This document shows positions 41,947 through 59,647 of a DNA stretch of 64,000 nucleotides, piece after piece. The position numbers and the translations under genes are program-made. This DNA is from Williamsia serinedens. GTDB taxonomy: Bacteria; Actinomycetota; Actinomycetes; Mycobacteriales; Mycobacteriaceae. The notes beneath the pieces were generated by a model. The model was not told the DNA's origin, made no database searches, and saw nothing but the letters and a program-made list of their open reading frames with translations. Numbering within the stretch: position 1 is the stretch's first letter; each line of letters opens with the position of its first letter. The DNA lies in NCBI RefSeq assembly GCF_024171725.1, contig NZ_JAMTCG010000003.1, forward strand, positions 496,001 through 560,000. Direction: 5' to 3'.

Positions 41947-43599
41947 TCAGTTGAGTCCGAGGCGGCGCGCCAACTCCGGCCCACCGACCTCGAGAACGAA
42001 AGCAGGATCACCGCAGACGACGAGTTGTTCTCGTGCGCGGGACAAGCCGACGTACAGCCGCTCTTTGGAGCGATCATGTGCCGCAGTCTGATTCATGGCC
42101 AGCACGACGACGTTACGCTCGAGACCCTTGAAACCCAGGACGTGCCCGAAAAAGATGTCGTCCCCGTCCCAGAACGTGTCCCAGTAGGCCACGTTGCCCT
42201 CGGCCTGCCTCTCGGCCTGAACGGGATGTCGACTGCCCGTGGTGAGGAGCGCGATGTCCTCGTAGCGCCATCCCTCGTCGATCAACAGCTCGACTTGGCC
42301 ATCGGCTGCCTCGACCGCATCGTGCGGACTGCAAGAGATGAAGCGGACCGCCGGGCCATCACCACCGTGCATGCGCATCCGCTGGCCGACCAGCGGTGTG
42401 AACGCCTTCGCGATCTGACGCGTGTTGCGGATGTTCGCGTCGAGGATCAACGGCACCAGCGGAACCGGCGGCGATCCCTGCCGGTCGAAGACGCGCTGGC
42501 CCTCATCGCTGAACACGTACACACCGCCATTCTCGGGATCACGCAGGCACGCCAACAACGGGGTCCACCAGTCGTCGGCGAAGTCCTGTGCCTCGTCGAC
42601 GACGATCGCGTCGAAACGCTTCCCTGGCGGGAGCTCCTCGGCGAGGCCTGCCATGACCGCCGGCAACTCGTGCTCCCAGAACCGAACTGTGCCGGCGTTG
42701 CGAACACCCTCGTCCGGTCCGGCCGGCGCACCCCATTGTTTGCCGAGCTCATGAAACTCCCCCACGTACGCGGGTTGCTCACGGCGAGACCAGCGGTCGG
42801 TCGTCCGACGCAGGAACGACGCGAGGCCGTGCGAGTAGCAGACCAGCGCGACGCGTTTGCCGTCGCGACCCATCCGCCGCGCCTTCTCCATCGCCAAGAA
42901 CGTCTTGCCACTACCCGCACCACCGCGGACCTCGACGCGCGGCAGAAGGGACGCGGCATGCAAGATCATGACCTGCTGCTCCGAGAGGATGTCGGCACTG
43001 TCCTCGTTCTCCTGCGCACGCGCGACGACGTCGTGTTGCGGGAGGCCACGACCGCCCAGCGCGAGCTGCAGTTCCTCGATCCCCTTCGAGCCGATGAACA
43101 GCTCATTGGAGCCGCGATCGATGAGCGCAGCACGCAGCAGCGAGAAGAACTGGTCGAGCTGATCTCGGTCGATCACCTTCCACCGCGGGCAATCGGGCAA
43201 AGCGAAGTCCGCCGCGATCGACGTGTGCGGGAAGACCACCATGTGGGTCCAGCGCACACGGCCTTGCGTCCATCGCGGGTCGGCCTCGACGAAACTCCGC
43301 AGCGCGTAGCACGCACCGAGAACCTGTGCCACGGGGTCGATCCGATGCCGGCCGTCGTCCCTCCCCTGCCACCAATCGGCACCGTCGTGGGTGATCTCGC
43401 CGGCCTTCACCTCGAGACACACGATCCCGACGCCGTCGATTGCGACGACGAAGTCGATCTCGTGATCCTTGTCGTGATCGGTGACCCGCTGCCCGACGAC
43501 GATCAGGTCATCGCCGACGAACTGGTCGACCAGGCACTGGTAGACCTTCTTCTCTGCGGAGTTCGCAAAACGCGGCTCGGCGGGGATCGTCTGCGCCAT
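41947..43599 (-). CDS. NERD nuclease-related domain / SF1 (UvrD-like) helicase
   Basis: 550 residues. N-terminal NERD domain with the PD-(D/E)XK-like pattern HEIDFVVAIDG (Glu47, Asp49) and LEVKAGE (Glu63, Lys65), then an SF1 helicase core: Walker A GGAGSGKT (about 228), VVDEAQDF (about 310), and a C-terminal GFKGLERNVVVLA/GLSRAREQLVV motif pair. Such fusions unwind and may cut DNA; several are linked to phage defence or repair. It lies between the HNH gene and a membrane protein, just outside the AT-rich island. Confidence 0.86.
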   Translation of the reverse strand: MAQTIPAEPRFANSAEKKVYQCLVDQFVGDDLIVVGQRVTDHDKDHEIDFVVAIDGVGIVCLEVKAGEITHDGADWWQGRDDGRHRIDPVAQVLGACYALRSFVEADPRWTQGRVRWTHMVVFPHTSIAADFALPDCPRWKVIDRDQLDQFFSLLRAALIDRGSNELFIGSKGIEELQLALGGRGLPQHDVVARAQENEDSADILSEQQVMILHAASLLPRVEVRGGAGSGKTFLAMEKARRMGRDGKRVALVCYSHGLASFLRRTTDRWSRREQPAYVGEFHELGKQWGAPAGPDEGVRNAGTVRFWEHELPAVMAGLAEELPPGKRFDAIVVDEAQDFADDWWTPLLACLRDPENGGVYVFSDEGQRVFDRQGSPPVPLVPLILDANIRNTRQIAKAFTPLVGQRMRMHGGDGPAVRFISCSPHDAVEAADGQVELLIDEGWRYEDIALLTTGSRHPVQAERQAEGNVAYWDTFWDGDDIFFGHVLGFKGLERNVVVLAMNQTAAHDRSKERLYVGLSRAREQLVVCGDPAFVLEVGGPELARRLGLN

Positions 43600-45056: not shown

Positions 45057-45488
45057 CTAAGATGAACCTTCCCTGCGCAGATACGGCACGATGGCTCCTA
45101 CAATTTCATCCGCCGACTCGTGCTCCCAGAAGCGCAACACCGTCCACCCACGCTCCGCAAGGAGCGAATCGACTTTCCGATCCCGCTCTCGATTGGCGTC
45201 GAATTTCCTACGCCACCAATCAGAGTTTCGCTTGGGCAAGTTGCCGTGAGACGGACAGCCGTGCCAGAAACAACCGTCCAAGAAGACGACGAGGCGGCGC
45301 CCTCGCCAAGACAAATCGCCTCTAAAACGGTGGTCCGACAGCAGCTTCTGGTCGACTCGAAACCGGAAGCCCATCGCGTGTAAGCGCCGCCTAACCTCGA
45401 CCTCAATCGATGTTCCGGACGTCTTCTGGGAACTCATCTGACGCCGCACCACATCGGTTGGCGGCACAAGTGGCTCGTTAGCACGCAT
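45057..45488 (-). CDS. vsr: very short patch repair endonuclease
   Basis: 143 residues. Vsr nicks next to T:G mismatches that arise when 5-methylcytosine deaminates, so it travels with C5-cytosine methyltransferases. Signature elements: RRRLHAMGFRFRVDQ, FRGDLSW (catalytic Asp), RLVVFLDGCFWHGCPSHG and WWRRKFDANRERDRKV. It is encoded head-to-head with the C5-methyltransferase, starts only 69 bases apart. ATG 45488 is taken as start; ATG 45437 is possible. Confidence 0.93.
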   Translation of the reverse strand: MRANEPLVPPTDVVRRQMSSQKTSGTSIEVEVRRRLHAMGFRFRVDQKLLSDHRFRGDLSWRGRRLVVFLDGCFWHGCPSHGNLPKRNSDWWRRKFDANRERDRKVDSLLAERGWTVLRFWEHESADEIVGAIVPYLRREGSS

Positions 45489-45556
45489 TGATCACCTCTG
45501 CACTTCCGGGCGCGCCGGGCGCGGCCATGTCAGACCTCTATCCTAGGCTTGTAAAC

Positions 45557-47500
45557 ATGGCTCGCACGGAGACGCCCAACAGCGAACCGCACTACGGCGT
45601 GAAGCAGGTCAGAGGCCCTTTTGTCGTCCTGCCGCCGAATTCGATCGCCACCGAGGACGACGCATCCCTCAGCAAGCTTTGCCGGTCGTTGAGGTCCCGG
45701 GATACCCCACTCGCCGCCGATCTGTTCGCCGGCGCCGGCGGAATCAGTCTCGGCCTAGAGCGCGTCGGCTACAAGGTCGTGCTCGGCGTAGACCACTACA
45801 ACTTCGCCGTCGAGACCCATCATCACCACTTCGCGGGTCGGTCCCTTGAGTGGGACCTAGCGGACCCTGACGTGATCGAAGACGTCGCTGCGACAATCCG
45901 AAAGAACAAGATCGAGCTGCTTGCGGGCGGCCCACCATGCCAGCCGTTCTCGAAAGCTGGTAGATCGATGATTCGTCACCGCGTCCAGTCTGGTGTTCGC
46001 GATCCACATGACGAGCGACGGGACCTGTGGCGCTCATTTCTCGAGGTAGTGCAGCTCTCTAAACCGCCCGCCGTTATCATGGAGAATGTTCCCGATATGG
46101 CGCTGGACCGTGAAATGTTCATCTTCAGAAGTATCGTGGAAGAGCTCGAGCAAGAGGGTTACTCGGTAAGCGCCCAAGTCGTGGAGACGTGGCGTTATGG
46201 AGTACCTCAGATGCGTCAGCGGCTTATCATCGTCGCCCTCCGCGGAAACAAGCAGTTCAATTGGCCATCTGAATCGCCCCAGCGCGTGACGTTGTGGAAT
46301 GCGATTGGAGATCTGCCTCCCGTAGAAGGTGGCTGGAGACCGCCGGGCGGCGCAGCTGGATGGACTGAGTACAACGGACCGAGCACTCAATACCAGAGTA
46401 TGATGCGATGCGGAGTAGATGCCGGCGACTCAGGTAAAGTATTCGATCACATAACGCGCCCCGTGCGGGAAGATGACCGAGCTGCATTCGAGTCAATGAC
46501 GCATAAGACAAAGTACACGGATCTGGCGCCTGAGCATCAGCGCTACCGCAGGGATATTTTTGACGACAAGTACAAGCGTCTAGACGAGAACGATCTGTGC
46601 CGGACGATTACAGCACACATAGCCAAGGACGGCTATTGGTACATTCACCCGCGGCAGCCGCGCACACTAACCGTACGTGAGGCCGCAAGAGTTCAGTCTT
46701 TCCCAGACGAGTTCAGGTTCGCAGGGCCCCCATCCGCCGCGTTCAAGCAGATCGGAAACGCGGTACCGCCGATCATTGGAGAGGTTTTCGGGCGCGCTAT
46801 TCGCTCAGCACTGGCTGACGGCCGCAAAGCAAAACTTTCTACTCGTCTGACTGCAGCGTCGCTAGCCAAGTGGGCTGGTGTTCCACCCACCGAAACTTTG
46901 GTGCCGTGGATAGCATGTGGGGACCGATGGAAAATCACGGTTGCGGAGCTTCTCTTAGATCGAGCACCGTCTACGGTCATTAGATCAGTGTGGCCAGTCG
47001 TCGAGATGCAACCTACTATCAACAGAGGTGGCTTGCCTACAGATGCAGACACTGCCCTGTTGGTGGATCTGATGTCCGGCGTTGGTCGAACAGCCAGAAC
47101 AGAGATTCTGAAGAATTTGATCGATCAAATGAAAAAGCATCCAGAAGCCCTCTGGCAGCCAACCATTGATCGCACCGTACTGCCCGCAGTGTCGATAGCT
47201 TTAGCCGACTTCTTAGAGCTGGCAGCGCCGACTGCGGAGCGGGACACAAAGAGTGAAGAACCAGTTTTGGTCACAAAAGGCGTCCTTCGCGTCGCGAGTC
47301 GCTTCCAGGGAAATGATGTTGACAAGCGAAACCGGCAAACGGACGGGCGATTAGCGGTCGCTAGGATGATCGGCCTCGGACCCGATTCGCGAATAGCGCA
47401 TCTCAAGCTTGTCCAGTTAGCCGCAGACATCTGCACGGTCGAGACTCCCAGCTGTTCGCGCTGTCCGCTCAGGGCGCGATGTGCGGCCGCTGCCAGTTAA
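45557..47500 (+). CDS. C5-cytosine DNA methyltransferase fused to EndoIII-like Fe-S domain
   Basis: 647 residues from ATG 45557. Residues about 50-430 are a C5-methyltransferase: motif I DLFAGAGG (55-62), catalytic GGPPCQPFS (Cys128), ENVPD (176-180), QMRQRLII and motif X FKQIGNAVPP. The last about 200 residues resemble the HhH-GPD/endonuclease III fold and end in C-x6-C-x2-C-x5-C (Cys626, 633, 636, 642), exactly the [4Fe-4S] loop of Nth/MutY. The HhH catalytic Lys and Asp appear replaced, so it may bind rather than cut. A TAGGCT 7 bases before ATG suggests a leaderless mRNA; no Shine-Dalgarno is present. Alternative start 45527. Confidence 0.9.
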   Translation: MARTETPNSEPHYGVKQVRGPFVVLPPNSIATEDDASLSKLCRSLRSRDTPLAADLFAGAGGISLGLERVGYKVVLGVDHYNFAVETHHHHFAGRSLEWDLADPDVIEDVAATIRKNKIELLAGGPPCQPFSKAGRSMIRHRVQSGVRDPHDERRDLWRSFLEVVQLSKPPAVIMENVPDMALDREMFIFRSIVEELEQEGYSVSAQVVETWRYGVPQMRQRLIIVALRGNKQFNWPSESPQRVTLWNAIGDLPPVEGGWRPPGGAAGWTEYNGPSTQYQSMMRCGVDAGDSGKVFDHITRPVREDDRAAFESMTHKTKYTDLAPEHQRYRRDIFDDKYKRLDENDLCRTITAHIAKDGYWYIHPRQPRTLTVREAARVQSFPDEFRFAGPPSAAFKQIGNAVPPIIGEVFGRAIRSALADGRKAKLSTRLTAASLAKWAGVPPTETLVPWIACGDRWKITVAELLLDRAPSTVIRSVWPVVEMQPTINRGGLPTDADTALLVDLMSGVGRTARTEILKNLIDQMKKHPEALWQPTIDRTVLPAVSIALADFLELAAPTAERDTKSEEPVLVTKGVLRVASRFQGNDVDKRNRQTDGRLAVARMIGLGPDSRIAHLKLVQLAADICTVETPSCSRCPLRARCAAAAS

Positions 47501-47501
47501 G

Positions 47502-48794
47502 CTACATAAATCCCAATCCAGCAGCCATTTCTGGGTTTTGCTCACGCATTACTTCGACGATTTTCTTCAGCGTCTCGTAGTGACCGCTCTGGATAGCCGC
47601 AGACTTTAGTGCCAACCCAACTTCAGCGTTAGAACTGCTACCGCCCTTCGACTCACTGCGATCTTCGGACGGGTCGTCGTTATGGTCCTGCCGACGATAT
47701 GTGCGATCGGCAAGTATGCAGAGCTCACTTATAGGTCGCTCCAACATCTGCTTGAGCTGACCAGGAATAGCTACCCGCATTTTAGCTACATTGATATTGA
47801 AAATCTCGTCAAGATCGTTATCAAAGTCAATACTGGCACGTGCGAGTTTAGTATGTTCGTCGATACCCCGAGTTCCACCCCAGCTGCCCCACTGCACTAG
47901 ACGATTTTCCCGATAAATGTACAGGCCCTGCTGGCGATTCCAATTCAACGGCCCCGCGGCATCGTCAAATGCATCCGGACTACTGAAGGTGCGCTTCCCA
48001 GGAAGAATGTAACGACCTAGTTGGACCTTCGAAACGCCTGTGTGATGCGAAAGCTCGAACTCTAAGGGATCCAGCTGCTGTGTTGCCGGCTCGTCGCGTA
48101 CGTAAGGATCCCATGGCATAAGCTTCTCGCCGTTGACCGAGATCGACACTCGGGGCGCGAGATTTTCTCCTGAAAGGAAGCGGTGGAACACCATCGCAAG
48201 GTGCTGCCGTGTCTTTACGATAAGAGTTTCGAATCGGCGCTTTGCCCACCCGCCATCCGCACCTGACGCCGGCAGAACGCGATCCAATTTCTGCCAAATT
48301 ACGACGGTGCCTGCGTCGCCACCGAGCATAGATTCGGCCCGCTCTGAGTGGCGGTCTCGTGGATTCTCCACGATAACCCAGTCGTCCCACCGTCCGATTA
48401 GGTCGAGGTCCAACGTCCTTCGTACAACACGCCTACGCTCTGACGACCGCGACACGAGGGTGAGGCACCTGCCCTGCGACAGGGAAGCAGTCTTGAGTCC
48501 CAACCCGTACCGGCCCAGATCACCAAGGGCATAGCTCCGCCGAGTCCCAAACCTCAGCGCCTCAGTAGCCTCGACGGCGGTGAGACCACAGCCGTTGTCG
48601 ACTACGTAGACAGCAGAATCAGTTCCCGCGAACTCGATCTCAACGCTCACCTCGGTCGATGACGCTGCAATGCTGTTATCGATAAGGTCGGCAACCGCGC
48701 CAACAAAGTCGTACCCGATGTCGCGCAACGACTGTGTGAGACGTGCTGCTGAAGGCGTGGCGCTGATAATGTTCTGCGGCACTGTTGAGTCCAA
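47502..48794 (-). CDS. GHKL ATPase, MutL/MORC-like, restriction-associated
   Basis: 430 residues. N-terminal GHKL (HATPase_c) domain: ADLIDNSIAA with Asn40, VVDNGCGL (66-71) and the ATP-lid GRYGLGLKTASLS (94-106). The residue at the usual catalytic Glu position is Asp36. A second alpha/beta domain (about 180-350) follows, as in MutL/Hsp90/MORC. The C-terminal tail is helical. MutL/MORC-type ATPases are known as parts of bacterial restriction-like operons with Z1 and nuclease genes. It is convergent with the methyltransferase (one base between stops) and lies 117 bases after the DUF6339-like gene. Confidence 0.85.
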   Translation of the reverse strand: MDSTVPQNIISATPSAARLTQSLRDIGYDFVGAVADLIDNSIAASSTEVSVEIEFAGTDSAVYVVDNGCGLTAVEATEALRFGTRRSYALGDLGRYGLGLKTASLSQGRCLTLVSRSSERRRVVRRTLDLDLIGRWDDWVIVENPRDRHSERAESMLGGDAGTVVIWQKLDRVLPASGADGGWAKRRFETLIVKTRQHLAMVFHRFLSGENLAPRVSISVNGEKLMPWDPYVRDEPATQQLDPLEFELSHHTGVSKVQLGRYILPGKRTFSSPDAFDDAAGPLNWNRQQGLYIYRENRLVQWGSWGGTRGIDEHTKLARASIDFDNDLDEIFNINVAKMRVAIPGQLKQMLERPISELCILADRTYRRQDHNDDPSEDRSESKGGSSSNAEVGLALKSAAIQSGHYETLKKIVEVMREQNPEMAAGLGFM

Positions 48795-48911
48795 TCGTCT
48801 TCGAATCTGCCTGCGACCAAGTTAAGCACCCCACACCGACAGTCGCCGTGAGCCACACGCCGACCCCCTCGCCGCGCGAACCGCTACCTCCACCACGGTG
48901 AAGTTAGGGTC

Positions 48912-49664
48912 TCAGCCCCCACGGAGGGCGGCGACGCCGGTGGCGACGAGATGGTCGAGCAGTAGGTCCAGTTCGGCGCCATCAAGCACATCGAGTGCCA
49001 GATGCGAGCGTTGACCGCGCACGCGTCTTGCCAGCTGCCGCATCAGTTCTGATCGTGCCACGTCTAGACCGTTCAATTCCGCACGCCACAACGCATTCTG
49101 AATCGCACGCGCGGTGCGGATATTCCCACCCAAGGTCGTCCGCTCCATAATCTGGACGAACTCGTCTTCACCCAGCGGCGCACATCCATCTGGGGCTGCG
49201 TCTAGATCTGGGCCTAAGGCCCAAGCACGCCACCACAAACGCCGAAGCACATTCCTCGGCTTTCCAAGCATTCGGGATTCCGGCGCACCAGGAAAGCGCC
49301 AAGACCCGATTTCTGGAACCACTACTAGCGTCAGAAACGACCAGACCCCAACGCTCGCCGCGTCGGCAGGAACAATATTCATTATTCGAAGTAATTCGCT
49401 GCCACAAGGGCGGTCAAAAGTTTGCGCCTGTCCCCGAGCGAGCGGCCTCGGGTAACCCGCGTTCTCCGCCGCCTCGCGGATCGCATCTCTGACGCTTGCG
49501 AGTTTCCGTTCGGGCACCACTTGGCCGCCGGTTGCGGAAGGAGATGCGCGATTGTGTTTCAATTCCGAAAGCGCAAAAAGCTGGGACGATTCAAGAGGCG
49601 CACGCTCGATTAGCAATGCCCGGGCGGCCGCAGGATCAAGCCGCGGGTAGACAAACGAGCTCAC
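48912..49664 (-). CDS. DUF6339-like protein of the defence operon
   Basis: 250 residues from GTG 49664, overlapping the upstream stop (GTGA). Helical, with the conserved-looking GKPRNVLRRLWWRAWALG centre and an acidic/aromatic environment (SVGVWSFLTLVVVPEIGSWRF) that I associate with DUF6339, a family found with PD-(D/E)XK/Z1 defence genes. The family match is from memory and moderate. No catalytic motif is visible; it could be an adaptor of the GHKL/Z1 machinery. Confidence 0.65.
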   Translation of the reverse strand: MSSFVYPRLDPAAARALLIERAPLESSQLFALSELKHNRASPSATGGQVVPERKLASVRDAIREAAENAGYPRPLARGQAQTFDRPCGSELLRIMNIVPADAASVGVWSFLTLVVVPEIGSWRFPGAPESRMLGKPRNVLRRLWWRAWALGPDLDAAPDGCAPLGEDEFVQIMERTTLGGNIRTARAIQNALWRAELNGLDVARSELMRQLARRVRGQRSHLALDVLDGAELDLLLDHLVATGVAALRGG

Positions 49665-50551
49665 TCGCGGCCTACCTTGTAGTGGCTCTGTAACCGGGAC
49701 TCAATGCGCCCCTTATCCTGAGTTCTCCACCGACGTAGCGATGACATGCTCTCCAATGGCCAGATCGCACCTATTATGTTTCGTAAAACTCCTGCAAGCG
49801 AATCGGCAGTACCATCAACGTCTAATGCCTCAACTTCCGCGCTCAGAAGACCAATGTCTACGAGTTGCCTAGATACGTCCCAATCTATCAGCCGAAGCAG
49901 CTGCTGCGAACTTGAATCACCTGAACCCGAAATCATTTTCTTTATTGCTGGACTACCCGTGTTCAAAAAAAGTCGGACCGAAGACATGAACGGTGCGTCG
50001 AAGTCCGAAGCGTCCACCTCAAGAAGCCACCCAGCATCGGCCACCGAACCTGACAAATTGGCAAAATCCAGCGCTTCAGTCGGAAACTGACTTCCAATTC
50101 CCTCCAATAAGTGCTGCGACTTCGAGCGCCAAATTACAGATCCCTTTGCCACCGGAGCAACAGCGCTGGTTGATTTCGCATCCAGAATTGCAATTACGGT
50201 CTCCAGCGTTAATCGGCCGCCAATCTCGTCACCACTTAAACGAAACTCAAACTTCTCGTCGCGATGTCCTTCGCTGAGCACTGTCCGAGCAACCACTCTC
50301 TCCGTCTTTGTCTGACTGGACTGCGCCAGGACAATCGCAGCGAGGGTCGCGCCTCGGTCGAGTCCACAGTCGCGGGTTAGAGCGTCCTTCTCTAACGAAA
50401 TAGTGGAACTCAACTTTAGGCTGGTCTGGTAGTCCCAGTGCTCAACATCGGGGGGAAATATTGAATAGCCACTTGCATCCTCGCGCAACCACGGTCCGTG
50501 CGCGACTGAACTCGGAGCGAGGGTAAGGAAAGGCGGAACGGAAACCCTCAC
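49661..50551 (-). CDS. unknown component of the defence operon
   Basis: 296 residues from GTG 50551, one base after the upstream stop; a CAGGAG ribosome site lies inside the end of the preceding gene. No motif recognised. Predicted mixed alpha/beta with a central ASDFDAPFMSSVRLFLNTG region. It is soluble, with no signal peptide. Its fixed place between the GHKL ATPase and the DUF6339-like gene, with coupled translation on both sides, says it is a structural part of the same system. Confidence 0.7.
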   Translation of the reverse strand: MRVSVPPFLTLAPSSVAHGPWLREDASGYSIFPPDVEHWDYQTSLKLSSTISLEKDALTRDCGLDRGATLAAIVLAQSSQTKTERVVARTVLSEGHRDEKFEFRLSGDEIGGRLTLETVIAILDAKSTSAVAPVAKGSVIWRSKSQHLLEGIGSQFPTEALDFANLSGSVADAGWLLEVDASDFDAPFMSSVRLFLNTGSPAIKKMISGSGDSSSQQLLRLIDWDVSRQLVDIGLLSAEVEALDVDGTADSLAGVLRNIIGAIWPLESMSSLRRWRTQDKGRIESRLQSHYKVGRE

Positions 50552-50552
50552 C

Positions 50553-52430
50553 TCATAACTCCTGTACCCCGAGATCGAACATCACCGTTGTGTCGTCGGA
50601 GCGCGCTACGACCAACTCTATCTCACTAACACCAGATGCTAACTCAACCTCGTACTTCGACCGGTCTAATCGATGCGGTTCTCCTGCAGAATCCGACCGA
50701 AATTCGAGTAGCTCGAGAGCCGGATCCAGATCACTATCAATCTCCTTACCGTCGAGGGCGGACCCGATATTCACGGAAAGCAATACCCCTTGGCTTGAAC
50801 TTGCTGTCGAGACACGCACTCGTGCGGCTGTACCTGCCCGCTCTTCACCGGCCTCGCCTAGCACGATCGGACGAGCCCAAACGATGTCTACACGCGAGCC
50901 AGAATGGCCTGACGCGCCACCGCGGGATCCAGCCGATTCCGCTTGCCCCTTTCCGGCAGCCGCCACTGATGAAACTAAATGTCCCAATTCGTCGGCCACT
51001 CGCGCGACACCGTCTGTACTTCTTCGCTCGTCAACAGGCGCGCCTCTCCACAACGCGTCGACGATTCTATAGACCTCGCGCAACGACACATTCACCGTGG
51101 TCTTGCCTGGGCCCTTCTCGAGCAGTCCTACGTTCCACGCATCATGCGTTGGAGGCTCGGAGTTTGCGAACAGGTGATCATACTTGTCGTTAACCTGAAA
51201 CACACCACCCCACTCAGTACCTCCTTCGACCGGCGCCGGACCCTCCATGTAGCAAACGACGAGTCGCGGAGAGCGAAGGAGCGCTATGTGGTGGGCCGCC
51301 CGCGGAAAGGGTGATGCCGGCAACATGCCATCCGTGTCGGCCGAGTCAGCCCCATCAGACACATCTGCGCGAGGTCGCCACACCGTAGGAACGACAGCGA
51401 GATGGCCCACTTCGGCTTTTGGCCGTTTGCAGCGGATCAATTCAACCGTCGCGCCTAGGGGTGGGGTAAATCCCTCTGGGTCGTTTACCGCTCTATAAGC
51501 GTCGACGAATGCTTGTAGCGGTGGCCGTTCAGAAGGGCTTGGTATTGCAATATTTAATCCATTGTAGGATACTGAAATTGCCATTCCGCAAGAGTCATTG
51601 GGTAACGCCACCATTTTCGGCCATAGATGCCAAAGCGCTGATTCCGCGATAAATTGCATTGCCTCTGAATCAGTCCTACCATCGAAATTTGGGGCGAGTA
51701 TGAGAATCGACGTGCCGTACTCCTCATAACCAAATTGACGCATCCCGATTCGCGCCGCGAGGCGGTCGGCTTCTCGACCCATCACTGGATGGGGGCTTCC
51801 GGCGCTATTCGCGACCTTGTCCCCCCACCAATGACGGCCGGTGTAAAGGTGCCGCGAGTAACTGAACTCGTCGCCGACAGCGCTGGCGATCAAACGCGAA
51901 ACTGGCCGCCCATTAAACCGCGTCCGTGTGTACACGACGATTGCGTTGACCGACGAAACCAGATATGAAATGGTCTTTCCGAATCCGTAAGTACCCCCAG
52001 ATAAAGACTGAGTGCTTGAGCGGGCCTTGCCCACGTTCAAAAGAAAATTTACCCAGTCGTAGCAATCGTCAGGTGACTCGGTATCCGCCTCCAAAGGACC
52101 GCCTAGCCCTCGTGTACCGCGATCCGTGATATAGATTCCAAAAACTTCGTGGCGACTCAGCAGCTGGTCGATCGAAAGGCCCGATGCCTTGCTGTATTTT
52201 GTAAAGACATCTGATCGAAGCGCCGCAATCTCGCCCGCTTCTAGGTCCCAACCTTCGATATCGAATTGCACTTCTCCAACTCCGGGCAGCCGAGCATCCC
52301 AACTATTCTGTGCCGTCTCTCTTACCAGCACGGTTAGCGGATCCATCGATGGGCGTCCAAGTAGCTTACGGAATCCTGATCCAGCAAGCGCGCCGGCACT
52401 CGGATATCGTTCAGGTACCCATTCCATCAT
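50553..52430 (-). CDS. second GHKL-type ATPase of the defence operon
   Basis: 625 residues from ATG 52430 (ATGA overlap with the nuclease gene). GHKL motifs are clear: N-box VRETAQNSWDA with catalytic-type Glu38 and Asn42, ITDRGTRGLGGP (Asp103) and the lid GGTYGFGK (145-152). Residues about 170-400 form a transducer-like domain, about 400-500 hold AHHIALLRSPRLVVCYMEG, and the C-terminal about 120 residues are strand-rich. It is different from the 430-residue GHKL protein, so the system has two. Probably an ATP-driven clamp on DNA. Confidence 0.8.
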   Translation of the reverse strand: MMEWVPERYPSAGALAGSGFRKLLGRPSMDPLTVLVRETAQNSWDARLPGVGEVQFDIEGWDLEAGEIAALRSDVFTKYSKASGLSIDQLLSRHEVFGIYITDRGTRGLGGPLEADTESPDDCYDWVNFLLNVGKARSSTQSLSGGTYGFGKTISYLVSSVNAIVVYTRTRFNGRPVSRLIASAVGDEFSYSRHLYTGRHWWGDKVANSAGSPHPVMGREADRLAARIGMRQFGYEEYGTSILILAPNFDGRTDSEAMQFIAESALWHLWPKMVALPNDSCGMAISVSYNGLNIAIPSPSERPPLQAFVDAYRAVNDPEGFTPPLGATVELIRCKRPKAEVGHLAVVPTVWRPRADVSDGADSADTDGMLPASPFPRAAHHIALLRSPRLVVCYMEGPAPVEGGTEWGGVFQVNDKYDHLFANSEPPTHDAWNVGLLEKGPGKTTVNVSLREVYRIVDALWRGAPVDERRSTDGVARVADELGHLVSSVAAAGKGQAESAGSRGGASGHSGSRVDIVWARPIVLGEAGEERAGTAARVRVSTASSSQGVLLSVNIGSALDGKEIDSDLDPALELLEFRSDSAGEPHRLDRSKYEVELASGVSEIELVVARSDDTTVMFDLGVQEL

Positions 52431-53416
52431 GAATCCTTCGCAAACTCATCGAAGACAGCAGAAATCGAGTTCGCGCTAAGAGCAGTTGGAGGCTCGGTGG
52501 CGAGCTCGATATCATAAGACATTCGTACAATCCCGGCCGGTAGTCTTCCTGACTTGAAACTTGACCGGACGATGCGTGGAAAGTTTTGGTCAACCAAGTA
52601 CAAGTTAGACTCGAGCAACTTGAACCGGTCCTTGTCGTAAATATTGATTTTAGTGCCGTCTAGTCCGAGATTGGACAATTTCCGAGTGAGCGACGCCGTG
52701 TCTGCACCTGCGTTCAGAACGCGCTCTAGGTGCTGAGCAAGATTTTCACCTGCGGGGTCCCGCGACATCCTGTGGAAGTTTAGCCACAGGGAAACTTGAT
52801 CGTCGGAGTCGAGTTGGTCGATGCTTGATATTTGAACACGTCGACCGCTCCGAGACAACGATGCCTTCACTTCTATCGCAAAAAGTTTAGTGCGGAAGTC
52901 GTGCTGACTCCCAACGGGCCCAGTCCAATAATCAATTGATCGATGGCCTCCGGCGTTCAAAATTTTCTCAAGAGTCAGTAATTCGCCAATGAGGCCGGCT
53001 AGCGCGCCGTCAGAAAGCGGCACACGGCTCATCGCTTCCAAGAACATCGACTTCCATTTGAGAAACACTCGATAAGCGGCACTCGCCGGAGATGTCGACT
53101 GCTCGATAGATTCGACAACATCTTGCGAAAATTGCGAAAAGATCGGTCTTAGATTTTCGTCTAAGCAAGCAATCGATAAGTATTCGGCCCCATCGACTTT
53201 TATTCTTGAAACTTCCAGTGCCTCACCACGTTCACTTGCAGGACAAGACTCGCCCGGCGCTAAGGGTATGAGCAGATGCCTCGCTCCCGCCGAGTCTAAA
53301 CCAAGGAGAATAGTCCCCGCGCGGACGCGAAAGCCACTGTCATTCACCGACAAGCCCAAACCAGCAGAGTCGGTCTCTTGGACTTTCCAGATGGATTCGA
53401 ACGGATCAGACCCCAC
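52427..53416 (-). CDS. PD-(D/E)XK nuclease, DUF4420-like
   Basis: 329 residues from GTG 53416, whose first base overlaps the Z1 stop. The nuclease core is visible: GLIGELLTLEKIL with Glu145, YWTGPVGSQHDF with Asp173, and FAIEVKAS with Glu182/Lys184, the E...D...ExK arrangement of the PD-(D/E)XK fold. This is the likely DNA-cutting subunit of the system. It lies between the Z1 ATPase and the GHKL ATPase, with overlapping codons on both sides. Confidence 0.85.
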   Translation of the reverse strand: MGSDPFESIWKVQETDSAGLGLSVNDSGFRVRAGTILLGLDSAGARHLLIPLAPGESCPASERGEALEVSRIKVDGAEYLSIACLDENLRPIFSQFSQDVVESIEQSTSPASAAYRVFLKWKSMFLEAMSRVPLSDGALAGLIGELLTLEKILNAGGHRSIDYWTGPVGSQHDFRTKLFAIEVKASLSRSGRRVQISSIDQLDSDDQVSLWLNFHRMSRDPAGENLAQHLERVLNAGADTASLTRKLSNLGLDGTKINIYDKDRFKLLESNLYLVDQNFPRIVRSSFKSGRLPAGIVRMSYDIELATEPPTALSANSISAVFDEFAKDS

Positions 53417-56022
53417 TACTCGACCCCCAGATCGATGTCATCGCGACTTCCTTCGTTATCGGTGTAGTCCTCGACGAAATCCTCAGTTTCAGTGTCGATC
53501 TCGGTGAGATCCACATGCACTGAAGGCTGGTCCTCTGTGGACGGATCAGCCTCTGGAAACGAGAACGCGACTCCCATTAGGTCACGCTTTGCGTCCAACG
53601 CGACTCGAAGGCCGGCGTCTGCCTTCGGCTGCGAGTCCTTATCTATGGGGTATATGATCAGCGATGCGCGTTGACTCGCGTTTCTGGCCTTTAGCAGACC
53701 ACTGTCGCTAATCTCGTCTCTTACCTGCTCTGTCGTCATGATGTCTATTACTCGGTCGGGCCTAGACATCAACGTGCCGATATTCGCGACGCCAGCCTCG
53801 CTCCTTTTTAATTTTGACCGAGTCATTAACGGCACTTTTTTGCCGATTCCTAAATCTATTGATCGTTTGGCGCTTTTCCTTCCCATTATCACCACATTCC
53901 AAACTAAGAGCGAATTGGCTTTATTTTGTTTTTTGATGTAAGTTGTCAGCTTTTCGGAATTCATCTCACTGGAGGAATGGAAACTATAATGTTCGATAAA
54001 ACTCAAGATTTGATGATTCGAAACTCCCTCAAATATTGTCAGACTGTCGTTATCAGAGCGCGATATGTCCTGAGCGATTTTGTCCATTATGCTGATAATA
54101 AGGTGCTTAACTGCGTTGAGGTTTTGCGACAGGATTGTTTCATCGAGATGCGAAAAGTAAGTAGTCTGGGGGTGTTGCCCACTAAATGAGGTATCACCCG
54201 TCACCGCAAACTGCATCTTGACTTTTGCAGTAACATGCATCTTCGGATGGAGCAATATTCTCACGGGAAGATTGGCCGGCGTAGATCCGTCAGTGAGACG
54301 GTACCGACTAATTTCAGTTCGTAACCCATCCTCGACGTCAGCTAGGAACTCGAAGTCTTCCGCAAGTTGCGCTGTAGTCCAGATCCGTGGTAAATCGCTG
54401 TAGCCGGGTCGATATCCAAACCATCGCCCCATTTGCAGTAGGGAATCGTATGTGTTCGACGACCTCAAAAAGTAGGACGACACTAGACCCTCAAGAGTAA
54501 GTCCACGAGACAAGGTGTTTCCCCCGACTGCTATAACAGTCGCGGGGTCATCACCGTAGATAAGACGGTCGGTAGACGCACTATTATCTGCAACGACCTT
54601 TACGTTGTTCAGCACGATCGCGAGTTCAGGCTCCAACGCAGTAAAATCGATTGCCGTCAAATTGTGCTTAGACGGAGGTTCCTTGACCATCTCGTGGTCC
54701 CAAAGGGTCTTGAGAGCGCCGCGGACTTGCTCGCGCTTTAGGTCTAGAGATCTGATAAATTCTTTAATTGGCGACAGATAGCTTTGTTGAAATTGAACAC
54801 GCATAGTTGTGTGCACCAACATGCTCGAATGCTTGCTGGTTTGCCCCCTCACACGCCGCGCGGCGGAGGCAAGCACGAACCACCTTATAGCGTCAGCCAA
54901 TCCGCTCGTGACGACTGCACCTTGCTGTTGCAGTTGTTTAGGTGAATGTTGGGCGGCTTCCTCCGAAGATATGATCCGAATCATATCGTGGGGCGCTTGC
55001 TCTGAAGTTTGCTCATCTTCACTTACCAGAGCACCAAAGAGTTCTCGAGCGCCGAAGTAGGTGTCCGGTTTTCTCAAAGAGTAGATGAAAGAACGGGGGT
55101 AGATGTCCCCGGCATCATTGGGATTGACGAGCACGTTCGCAAATGGTGTTGCGGTGTATCCCAAGTAGGCGACTCGCGGAAGCCTCAGAAGGTCGACTAG
55201 CAATTGGTTAATCCTAGTGCGATCTAGCTCGGCATTCTTGGCCGTATTTATGCTGGCTTGATCTGATTCGTCGTCTATGATTAGAACTGGGCACGTATCC
55301 AGGCCGCCATGCTTGTTGGCCTCGTTCAACCAATCCCGCAGCCGCGTCATACGGGAAACATTCTTTTTCACGACGGCGATGAGTCGTAGATCCGTCCCCG
55401 CAACCAGCGGAAGCGCCCGGACAGGATTACCGAAGTCTCTGTATTCGTCCGTAAGTTGCAGCCACTGCGTAGGGTGTTGCGCGCTTAGCTGCTGCTCTAA
55501 CCGAAGCTGCGTCTGTCTCCTCAGAGCATTGTGGACGCCTGAAAGCACTATGAACAGGCGATAGCCGGCATCTGCGGCCTTCGCGATGGTGGCAGTGAAA
55601 TTCGCAGTTTTTCCCGACTGAACAAACCCAAGCACGAGGCCGCGTGTCTTGATCTGTTCACTGTGGGGATCGGCGAGAAGGCCAACGATATCAGTTGACG
55701 CCTCATCTAGATCGGGGACGGCGTTTTTCCAGCTCGAATCCGCGAGCAGCGCAGTCTTCAGCTTTGGCCAGAAAACATCTTCTGCCGATGGTCCAGTGTA
55801 CCAAGGGTCAGCTCCGTCTTCTGGGTCATACAGGGCCGTGCCCTGAGCAACAACGCGCGTGTGGTCTGAGATCTCTTTCCGTAAGGCGATCACTCCATCG
55901 ATCAGTGCGTGGTCACCCGCCAAGGTCTTCAACTTGCGGCCCGCTTCGTCGACAGTGTCACCCCTACGAACGAGCAGTTCGAGTTGGTTGAGGATTAGCG
56001 CTTGTCGCTCCGAAATATTCAA
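53416..56022 (-). CDS. Z1-domain ATPase/helicase
   Basis: 868 residues from TTG 56022, which has AAGGAG 6 bases upstream. Superfamily-II-like motor: Walker A GFVQSGKT (132-139), IIDDESDQAS (248-257), YLGYTATPFANVLV (about 286-299) and the Z1 domain with VGGNTLSRGLTLEGLVSS and LLQMGRWFGYRPGY. An acidic C-terminal tail ends the protein. Z1 proteins occur in restriction-like operons with MutL/MORC-type ATPases and are thought to move on or remodel DNA. It is the first gene of the minus-strand operon, so its upstream region (56023 on) should hold the promoter. Confidence 0.92.
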   Translation of the reverse strand: MNISERQALILNQLELLVRRGDTVDEAGRKLKTLAGDHALIDGVIALRKEISDHTRVVAQGTALYDPEDGADPWYTGPSAEDVFWPKLKTALLADSSWKNAVPDLDEASTDIVGLLADPHSEQIKTRGLVLGFVQSGKTANFTATIAKAADAGYRLFIVLSGVHNALRRQTQLRLEQQLSAQHPTQWLQLTDEYRDFGNPVRALPLVAGTDLRLIAVVKKNVSRMTRLRDWLNEANKHGGLDTCPVLIIDDESDQASINTAKNAELDRTRINQLLVDLLRLPRVAYLGYTATPFANVLVNPNDAGDIYPRSFIYSLRKPDTYFGARELFGALVSEDEQTSEQAPHDMIRIISSEEAAQHSPKQLQQQGAVVTSGLADAIRWFVLASAARRVRGQTSKHSSMLVHTTMRVQFQQSYLSPIKEFIRSLDLKREQVRGALKTLWDHEMVKEPPSKHNLTAIDFTALEPELAIVLNNVKVVADNSASTDRLIYGDDPATVIAVGGNTLSRGLTLEGLVSSYFLRSSNTYDSLLQMGRWFGYRPGYSDLPRIWTTAQLAEDFEFLADVEDGLRTEISRYRLTDGSTPANLPVRILLHPKMHVTAKVKMQFAVTGDTSFSGQHPQTTYFSHLDETILSQNLNAVKHLIISIMDKIAQDISRSDNDSLTIFEGVSNHQILSFIEHYSFHSSSEMNSEKLTTYIKKQNKANSLLVWNVVIMGRKSAKRSIDLGIGKKVPLMTRSKLKRSEAGVANIGTLMSRPDRVIDIMTTEQVRDEISDSGLLKARNASQRASLIIYPIDKDSQPKADAGLRVALDAKRDLMGVAFSFPEADPSTEDQPSVHVDLTEIDTETEDFVEDYTDNEGSRDDIDLGVE

Positions 56023-56780: not shown

Positions 56781-57901
56781 ATGGTCCACCTTCACAACGC
56801 CACAGACTCCGCTGTAGTCGCTGGCCTGACAGCAGACTCGGTGTCGACGACCGGACGGTTCTTCACTGGGATCACGCGCGGTGCGGTGATCGACTTCCTG
56901 CGAACACGTCTGTCACCCCGCCCTGGCCGAGCGGGCACAGACATCTCCCTCAACTCCCCTGTCGCACCTTCGCAGCGGTTGCTGAAGCTCGCTGCCGACG
57001 AGGTACGCGGTCGCGAATAGTTTCACCTGCTCGGCAACCAGCAACTCGCAGTCGACCTCGTTATGCACTTCGTCGAACAGGCACGGCGTGCGAATTCGAA
57101 GCGCATCGTCGTGGTCACGGGTGCGCTCGGCAGCGGAAAAGCCTGGCCGCCTGTCGCTGCTCGGTGAGCTGTCCCGGCAGGGTCGAACCGTGCTGTACGC
57201 CAAGAGCCCCCGCTCGCTCACGCACATCCTGCGCAAAGTTGCGGGCCATCGCGACACGCGAGTGCACTCCATGATCAAGTACTTCGACCAGTTCGTAGAC
57301 GCCGGCACCGGCGACCTCGACGTCCTGATTCTCGACGAAGCCCACCGCAATCGAGATACTTGGGTGGACCGCTCTACCGAACGGCGCTGCGTACCGGTAG
57401 TCGGCAAGTAGACGAGGTGATCTCCGTGGCGCGTCCCAGTCTCCCAGCTTGACCAGCGCTAAAATGTGCGGCCCGGTGAGATGGGGACGCGCGAGCAGAT
57501 TGAGGCGTACGCCGCACAGGTCGGAGTCGCGACCCATCACGTGGAACTCGGCGAGCAGCTCCGCTGCGGCGGCAGCGAGAAAACTTGCGGTCACGCCGCG
57601 GGAACAGCAGGAGTGATCGCCGGATCGGCGATTGTCCGCCGGCGCCGCGGGCGACGGACTATGGCGATTCAGTTTGGTCAGATTTGTGTATACCGCGCAG
57701 GGTTTAAGTACGACAGGAAGGGCGCAATTATTGAACCGGACCCCATGTGACGCGGTGACCAGTTCGTCTTTGTCGAGAAGCCAACAAAGATCCCGATTCG
57801 AGGAACACGGTCGAGGTTCCAGACAGACGGTTCCATCGCCTCGTCCGCAGCGCTTAGAGGTGTTATTCACGCTCGGAATGGTCGGCACCGTCGTCTACTA
57901 G
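56781..57901 (+). pseudogene. decayed DUF2075-type ATPase/helicase gene
   Basis: Pieces of one DUF2075-family protein occur in order but in different frames: FFTGITRGAVIDFLRTRL and LNSPVAPSQRLLKLAADEV (to 57020), then after an in-frame TAG (57018-57020, probably a former CAG) QQLAVDLVMHFVEQARR and Walker A TGALGSGK (about 57120-57140), a frameshift, LSRQGRTVLYAK, FVDAGTGDLDVLILDEAH, then REQIEAYAAQVGVATHHVEL with QLRCGGSE (57490-57580), GFKYDRKGAIIEPDP (57709-57747) and finally LFTLGMVGTVVY up to the TAG at 57901. At least one nonsense change and several frameshifts/deletions make it non-functional. It is a relic of an earlier island gene. Confidence 0.75.
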
Positions 57902-59014: not shown

Positions 59015-59647
59015 CTACGCCGCGATCGGGACAACCACCTCGTTGCGGCGTCGGAAGGGCAGGGTCCACGGCGGGTCGTAAAACCAGCTGACCGGCTCGC
59101 CGGCGGTCTCGACACCCTTCGCGGCGAGCGCGTCGAGCAGCTCCTTTGTCTTCGCCGCGACCGCCTCGGGGCTGCGGGAGCCGCTGAACCGCACTGCGGC
59201 GACGGACTCCTCCGGCACCTCGACAAGCCGGACGCGATCGTCCTTCGGCGTCGGCAGCGTCGCCATCGTCCACTTCGACGGCATGAAGAACCGGATGACC
59301 CAGCCGTTCTCATCGCTCGACGTCGACACCGGCGCGGTCATCGCGATCTTCTCGCCCTTCGCGGCCCCTTGGCTGACCGGCGCGGTCATCGCAACCTGCC
59401 GGCTGCCTTGGTTGCCTCCGAAGATGTAACCGGCGAGGCGTCGGAACCCGTCGGACCGCGCCTTCTCCTCGTCGGACCCCTCCACGGTGGTCTCGGCCGC
59501 GATCCGCGGCTCGTAACGACGGATCTCGACGGTGTCGGTCAGCTTCTTCGTGGTGTGCGACGGCTCCTCGGTCAGCACGCGCACACCCACGATCCCCAGC
59601 GCGGCATCCGCCACCTGCTCGACAACATTCACGACTCTCGACAGCAC
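59015..59647 (-). CDS. SOUL-type haem-binding protein
   Basis: 210 residues from GTG 59647. SOUL/HBP fold: TVEIRRYEPRIAAETTVEG, FRRLAGYIFGGNQGSRQVAM followed by the doubled IAMTAPVS segments, VIRFFMPSKWTMATLP, and WFYDPPWTLPFRRRNEV at the C-terminus. The family binds haem or tetrapyrroles loosely. No signal peptide, so cytoplasmic. The 230-base region upstream, shared with the divergent 400-residue gene, probably holds both promoters. Confidence 0.92.
   Translation of the reverse strand: MLSRVVNVVEQVADAALGIVGVRVLTEEPSHTTKKLTDTVEIRRYEPRIAAETTVEGSDEEKARSDGFRRLAGYIFGGNQGSRQVAMTAPVSQGAAKGEKIAMTAPVSTSSDENGWVIRFFMPSKWTMATLPTPKDDRVRLVEVPEESVAAVRFSGSRSPEAVAAKTKELLDALAAKGVETAGEPVSWFYDPPWTLPFRRRNEVVVPIAA

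Follow-up and report, generated by a model that had tools for sequence, protein, structure and literature searches.

The window analysed here, a 64,000-nucleotide stretch of Williamsia serinedens contig NZ_JAMTCG010000003.1, carries an eight-gene block that resembles a defence against foreign DNA based on DNA methylation. This block with two GHKL ATPases, one of them a probable one, was reported in a first-pass annotation of the sequence and is confirmed here. It appears to combine two modules with separate inheritance, a cutting machine of five genes (the core) and a portable methylation-and-repair set (the cassette), and a different role is therefore likely for the second ATPase, GHKLb. The portable set also adjoins other defence systems.

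The cassette and the methyltransferase tail

The cassette genes encode GHKLb, an MzaB-like GHKL ATPase of 430 amino acids (aa) (47502..48794, minus strand; HATPase_c_3, 7e-25), and a 670-aa C5 DNA methyltransferase with a C-terminal MutY/Mig-like Fe-S domain (45488..47500, plus strand; DNA_methylase, 1e-55). The methyltransferase coordinates are those of the longest open reading frame (ORF), with a TTG start, and alignment of relatives suggests a true start about 20-35 codons downstream. Next to them lies the gene for a 143-aa Vsr-type T:G mismatch endonuclease (45057..45488, minus strand); the earlier Vsr call held, as the protein scores 112.3 bits against TIGR00632 (cut-off 97.85), and residues D58 and H76 are kept in 49/49 aligned rows.

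The methyltransferase tail (46820..47500, plus strand) is a glycosylase-like Fe-S domain without the catalytic Asp. The mutY profile matches methyltransferase residues 472-668 (8.5e-07), and the window tail alone gave no Pfam match. A profile built from 13 tails found its best match in 1kea ("possible G-T mismatches repair enzyme"; 3.3e-13), followed by MutY and endonuclease III. 1kea is of the Mig.Mth type. The likeness to this type of T:G mismatch glycosylase extends across the entire domain including the Fe-S cysteines, but the tail lacks the catalytic Asp and is fused to a methyltransferase. All four cysteines are kept in 30/30 aligned sequences, and the catalytic position is occupied by a residue other than Asp in 28/28 fused tails (with poor alignment at this position in L143) and by Asp in both stand-alone HhH-GPD proteins. 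The latter Fe-S proteins (L065:13909-14610 and L097:16462-17133; Pfam HhH-GPD 2.8e-12 and 3e-15) are encoded near core methyltransferases in loci without Vsr and are possibly an alternative to it; no stand-alone HhH-GPD-type protein was found in 15 other loci with a methyltransferase and without Vsr. Judging from these sequences, the tail may derive from an old T:G glycosylase which, after fusion and in the company of Vsr, kept its reading of DNA or mismatches and lost base excision.

GHKLb co-occurs and co-diverges with the tailed methyltransferase, their distances correlating at 0.93 over 20 cassettes from three contexts (DISARM-type loci being represented by the stronger-tailed of their two methyltransferases), and the linkage of Vsr appears looser. 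In the phylum set, GHKLb orthologs (>640 bits) occur in 4/396 genomes, at the core in W. serinedens itself, G135 and G247 and beside MZA genes in G182. The class set of 394 genomes yielded ten orthologs at E 1e-164 or better. Besides that of the window, one stands at a five-gene core (L165, on a contig shared with L022), two adjoin MZA sets (L108 and L166), five adjoin DISARM-type genes (L167-L171), and L172 lies at a contig edge with its tail in a different frame. The L108 set matches the MzaB, C, D and E profiles (5e-192 for C, 2e-102 for B and 1.8e-77 for E), and in that of L166 PADLOC identifies MzaB, C and E, and a custom profile identifies DUF4420; at both loci a second GHKL protein, MzaB, adjoins the cassette. 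DrmA (2.7e-216) and DrmB (1.6e-69) were identified in G666 and similarly in G486, the two DISARM-type genomes scanned. The L167 locus also contains AIPR and a sigma-70-like protein; a 965-aa ORF there (L167:105-3002), which adjoins the AIPR gene, combines sigma-70 regions with a partial MzaB-like stretch. On a quick GHKLb tree the cassette switches context at least three times. The gene set recurs in other genomes, and the cassette also occurs beside MZA and DISARM-type genes.

The five-gene core and its surroundings

The core starts with an ORF at 53416..56022 (minus strand). The sequence DSLLQMGRWFG in the window fits the superfamily II (SFII) helicase motif DThhQXuRhFG, and the helicase residues Q530, R533, F535 and G536 are kept in 87/87 aligned rows. 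The second gene (52427..53416, minus strand) encodes a 329-aa MzaD-like PD-(D/E)XK nuclease (MzaD, 5.2e-17), for which the proposed DUF4420 assignment is borne out by Pfam (9.9e-51) and by residues E145, D173, E182 and K184 (E-D-ExK, RE-fold), kept in 66/66 rows. The third gene product, GHKLa (50553..52430, minus strand; 625 aa), is a probable GHKL ATPase with a C-terminal extension; it had no Pfam match, and E38, N42 and D45 are kept in 68/68 rows and GGxYGxGK in 67-68/68. The fourth, U296 (49661..50551, minus strand; 296 aa), had no family match and was modelled as an immunoglobulin-like beta-sandwich with a helical part. The fifth (48912..49664, minus strand; 250 aa) is a DUF6339-family protein (Pfam 0.038; 1.9e-10 in L088). 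At L174:488-11531, DrmA and DrmB lie directly downstream of the GHKLa-U296-DUF6339 trio.

The block is adjoined by a defence-type gene for a NERD and UvrD-like helicase protein (41947-43599, minus strand; PADLOC RTasNERD-Hel, 4.2e-36). At its right edge, two short ORFs (57088-57750, plus strand) match separate parts of the SLFN-g3 helicase (3.4e-05 and 0.0011, both under the cut-off) and look like remnants of a decayed gene; a SOUL heme-binding protein is encoded at 59015-59647 (minus strand; 4.5e-49).

Relation to known systems

MZA has been tested for anti-phage activity. Of its components MzaA-E, AIPR (MzaE) and the sigma-like MzaA were not found here; in their place the core encodes GHKLa, U296 and DUF6339, and the MzaB-like GHKLb goes with the methyltransferase. 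The MzaC homolog is clear but below the NCBIfam cut-off (399.8 against 1500 bits), as is the MzaD homolog (95.3 against 420). GHKLb reaches 240.9 of the 850 bits required for MzaB and covers only the first 343-346 of 480-500 profile positions; on a quick tree, MzaB of L108 and L109 falls outside the group of the 15 GHKLb rows, to which one cut MZA-like row, L111, also belongs. AIPR/MzaE was not matched in the eight block and two left-flank proteins; on the right flank the scan covered four ORFs, with Pfam. The MzaA profile had three matches in the genome, on contigs C1 and C6, and none on the window's contig (C3). The PADLOC profile PDLC02203 (MzaA) fires in 10/14 control genomes through its C-terminal part, which looks sigma-70-like, so MzaA calls need caution.

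GHKLa weakly matches PDC-M33A (6.6e-07) of the unvalidated PADLOC candidate PDC-M33. PDC-M33C is matched by DUF6339 proteins of a Synechococcus plasmid, among the relatives only; the window's DUF6339 protein had no PADLOC match, and M33B was not seen. No DISARM DrmA or DrmB was found among the PADLOC families listed for the eight window proteins (for the methyltransferase, the best 25 of 58), and the sole likeness is the DrmMII-type similarity of the methyltransferase. As in Dcm-Vsr-MutL very short patch repair, a C5-methyltransferase, Vsr and a MutL-like ATPase stand together; however, GHKLb scores 26.0 bits against a MutL cut-off of 180, and MutS is not among the eight proteins. With the third kind of restriction-modification operon described by Iyer, Abhiman and Aravind (2008; PMC2292703) the block has in common an SFII helicase with DThhQXuRhFG, an E-D-ExK protein, a GHKL ATPase, a cytosine methylase and Vsr. 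The available part of that text does not mention DUF6339, U296 or a portable cassette, unlike what is seen here, nor does it contain the terms glycosylase, HhH or MutY.

Roles of the two ATPases

Taken together, the sequence comparisons indicate that the block is most likely a two-module C5-methylation restriction system with GHKLb in the marking half. One possible, though not probable, role for this half is that of a plug-in that marks and proofreads. T:G mismatches would arise from the cytosine methyltransferase's own mark, its built-in dead mismatch-glycosylase domain would act as the sensor, and this would call the dedicated MutL-like GHKLb and Vsr for repair; several restriction machines (the five-gene core, MZA and DISARM-type) would have adopted the module for self-marking. 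Against a fixed partnership, G128 (L109, L148) and G263 (L111, L149) carry a more divergent tailed methyltransferase by MZA-like genes and no clear GHKLb ortholog; the cut GHKL protein of G263 groups with GHKLb on a long branch.

It is possible, if doubtful, that GHKLb uses ATP to control the tailed methyltransferase and has no part in repair, for instance by preventing methylation of invading DNA or by recruiting the enzyme to hemimethylated sites, with the tail as a docking or DNA-reading surface. The tight GHKLb-methyltransferase linkage, the missing Asp and the apparently looser linkage of Vsr would fit, but the tail resembles a G:T mismatch enzyme and Vsr is present in 13/13 core loci with the cassette.

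In type I systems, HsdS is the specificity subunit for both cutting and methylation. An HsdS-like role of the GHKLa-U296-DUF6339 trio, common to both activities, seems unlikely, although DUF6339 is fused to a C5-methyltransferase in 22 Streptomyces loci (e.g. L088:12873-14702), and on a cyanobacterial plasmid a second set of GHKL, a 342-aa protein and DUF6339 lies directly upstream of a tailed methyltransferase. Nearly all Streptomyces fusion loci have a second methyltransferase downstream, and the Synechococcus plasmid (NZ_CP143872.1; L142, L143) carries two back-to-back GHKL/DUF6339 sets, the second ending in the tailed enzyme.

The first-pass annotation had both GHKL proteins as clamps of one restriction complex that licenses the nuclease on unmarked DNA. 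This interpretation is partly supported, but GHKLb tracks the methyltransferase and is improbable as such a clamp. That the block is simply an MZA system is more improbable still, since its MzaB, MzaC and MzaD homologs all lie far under their cut-offs, the MZA set of L108 scores as given above, MzaE is unmatched in the proteins scanned and MzaA on the window's contig, and GHKLa, U296 and DUF6339 are extra.

Where genes are simply neighbours, it usually stays undecided which half of such an operon an ATPase serves; here each of the two is assigned to a likely half of a complex defence operon. If this is true, defence systems can exchange methyltransferase cassettes, and the fusion of a methyltransferase with a mismatch-reading domain would be a bacterial means to curb the mutational cost of 5-methylcytosine within a defence system.
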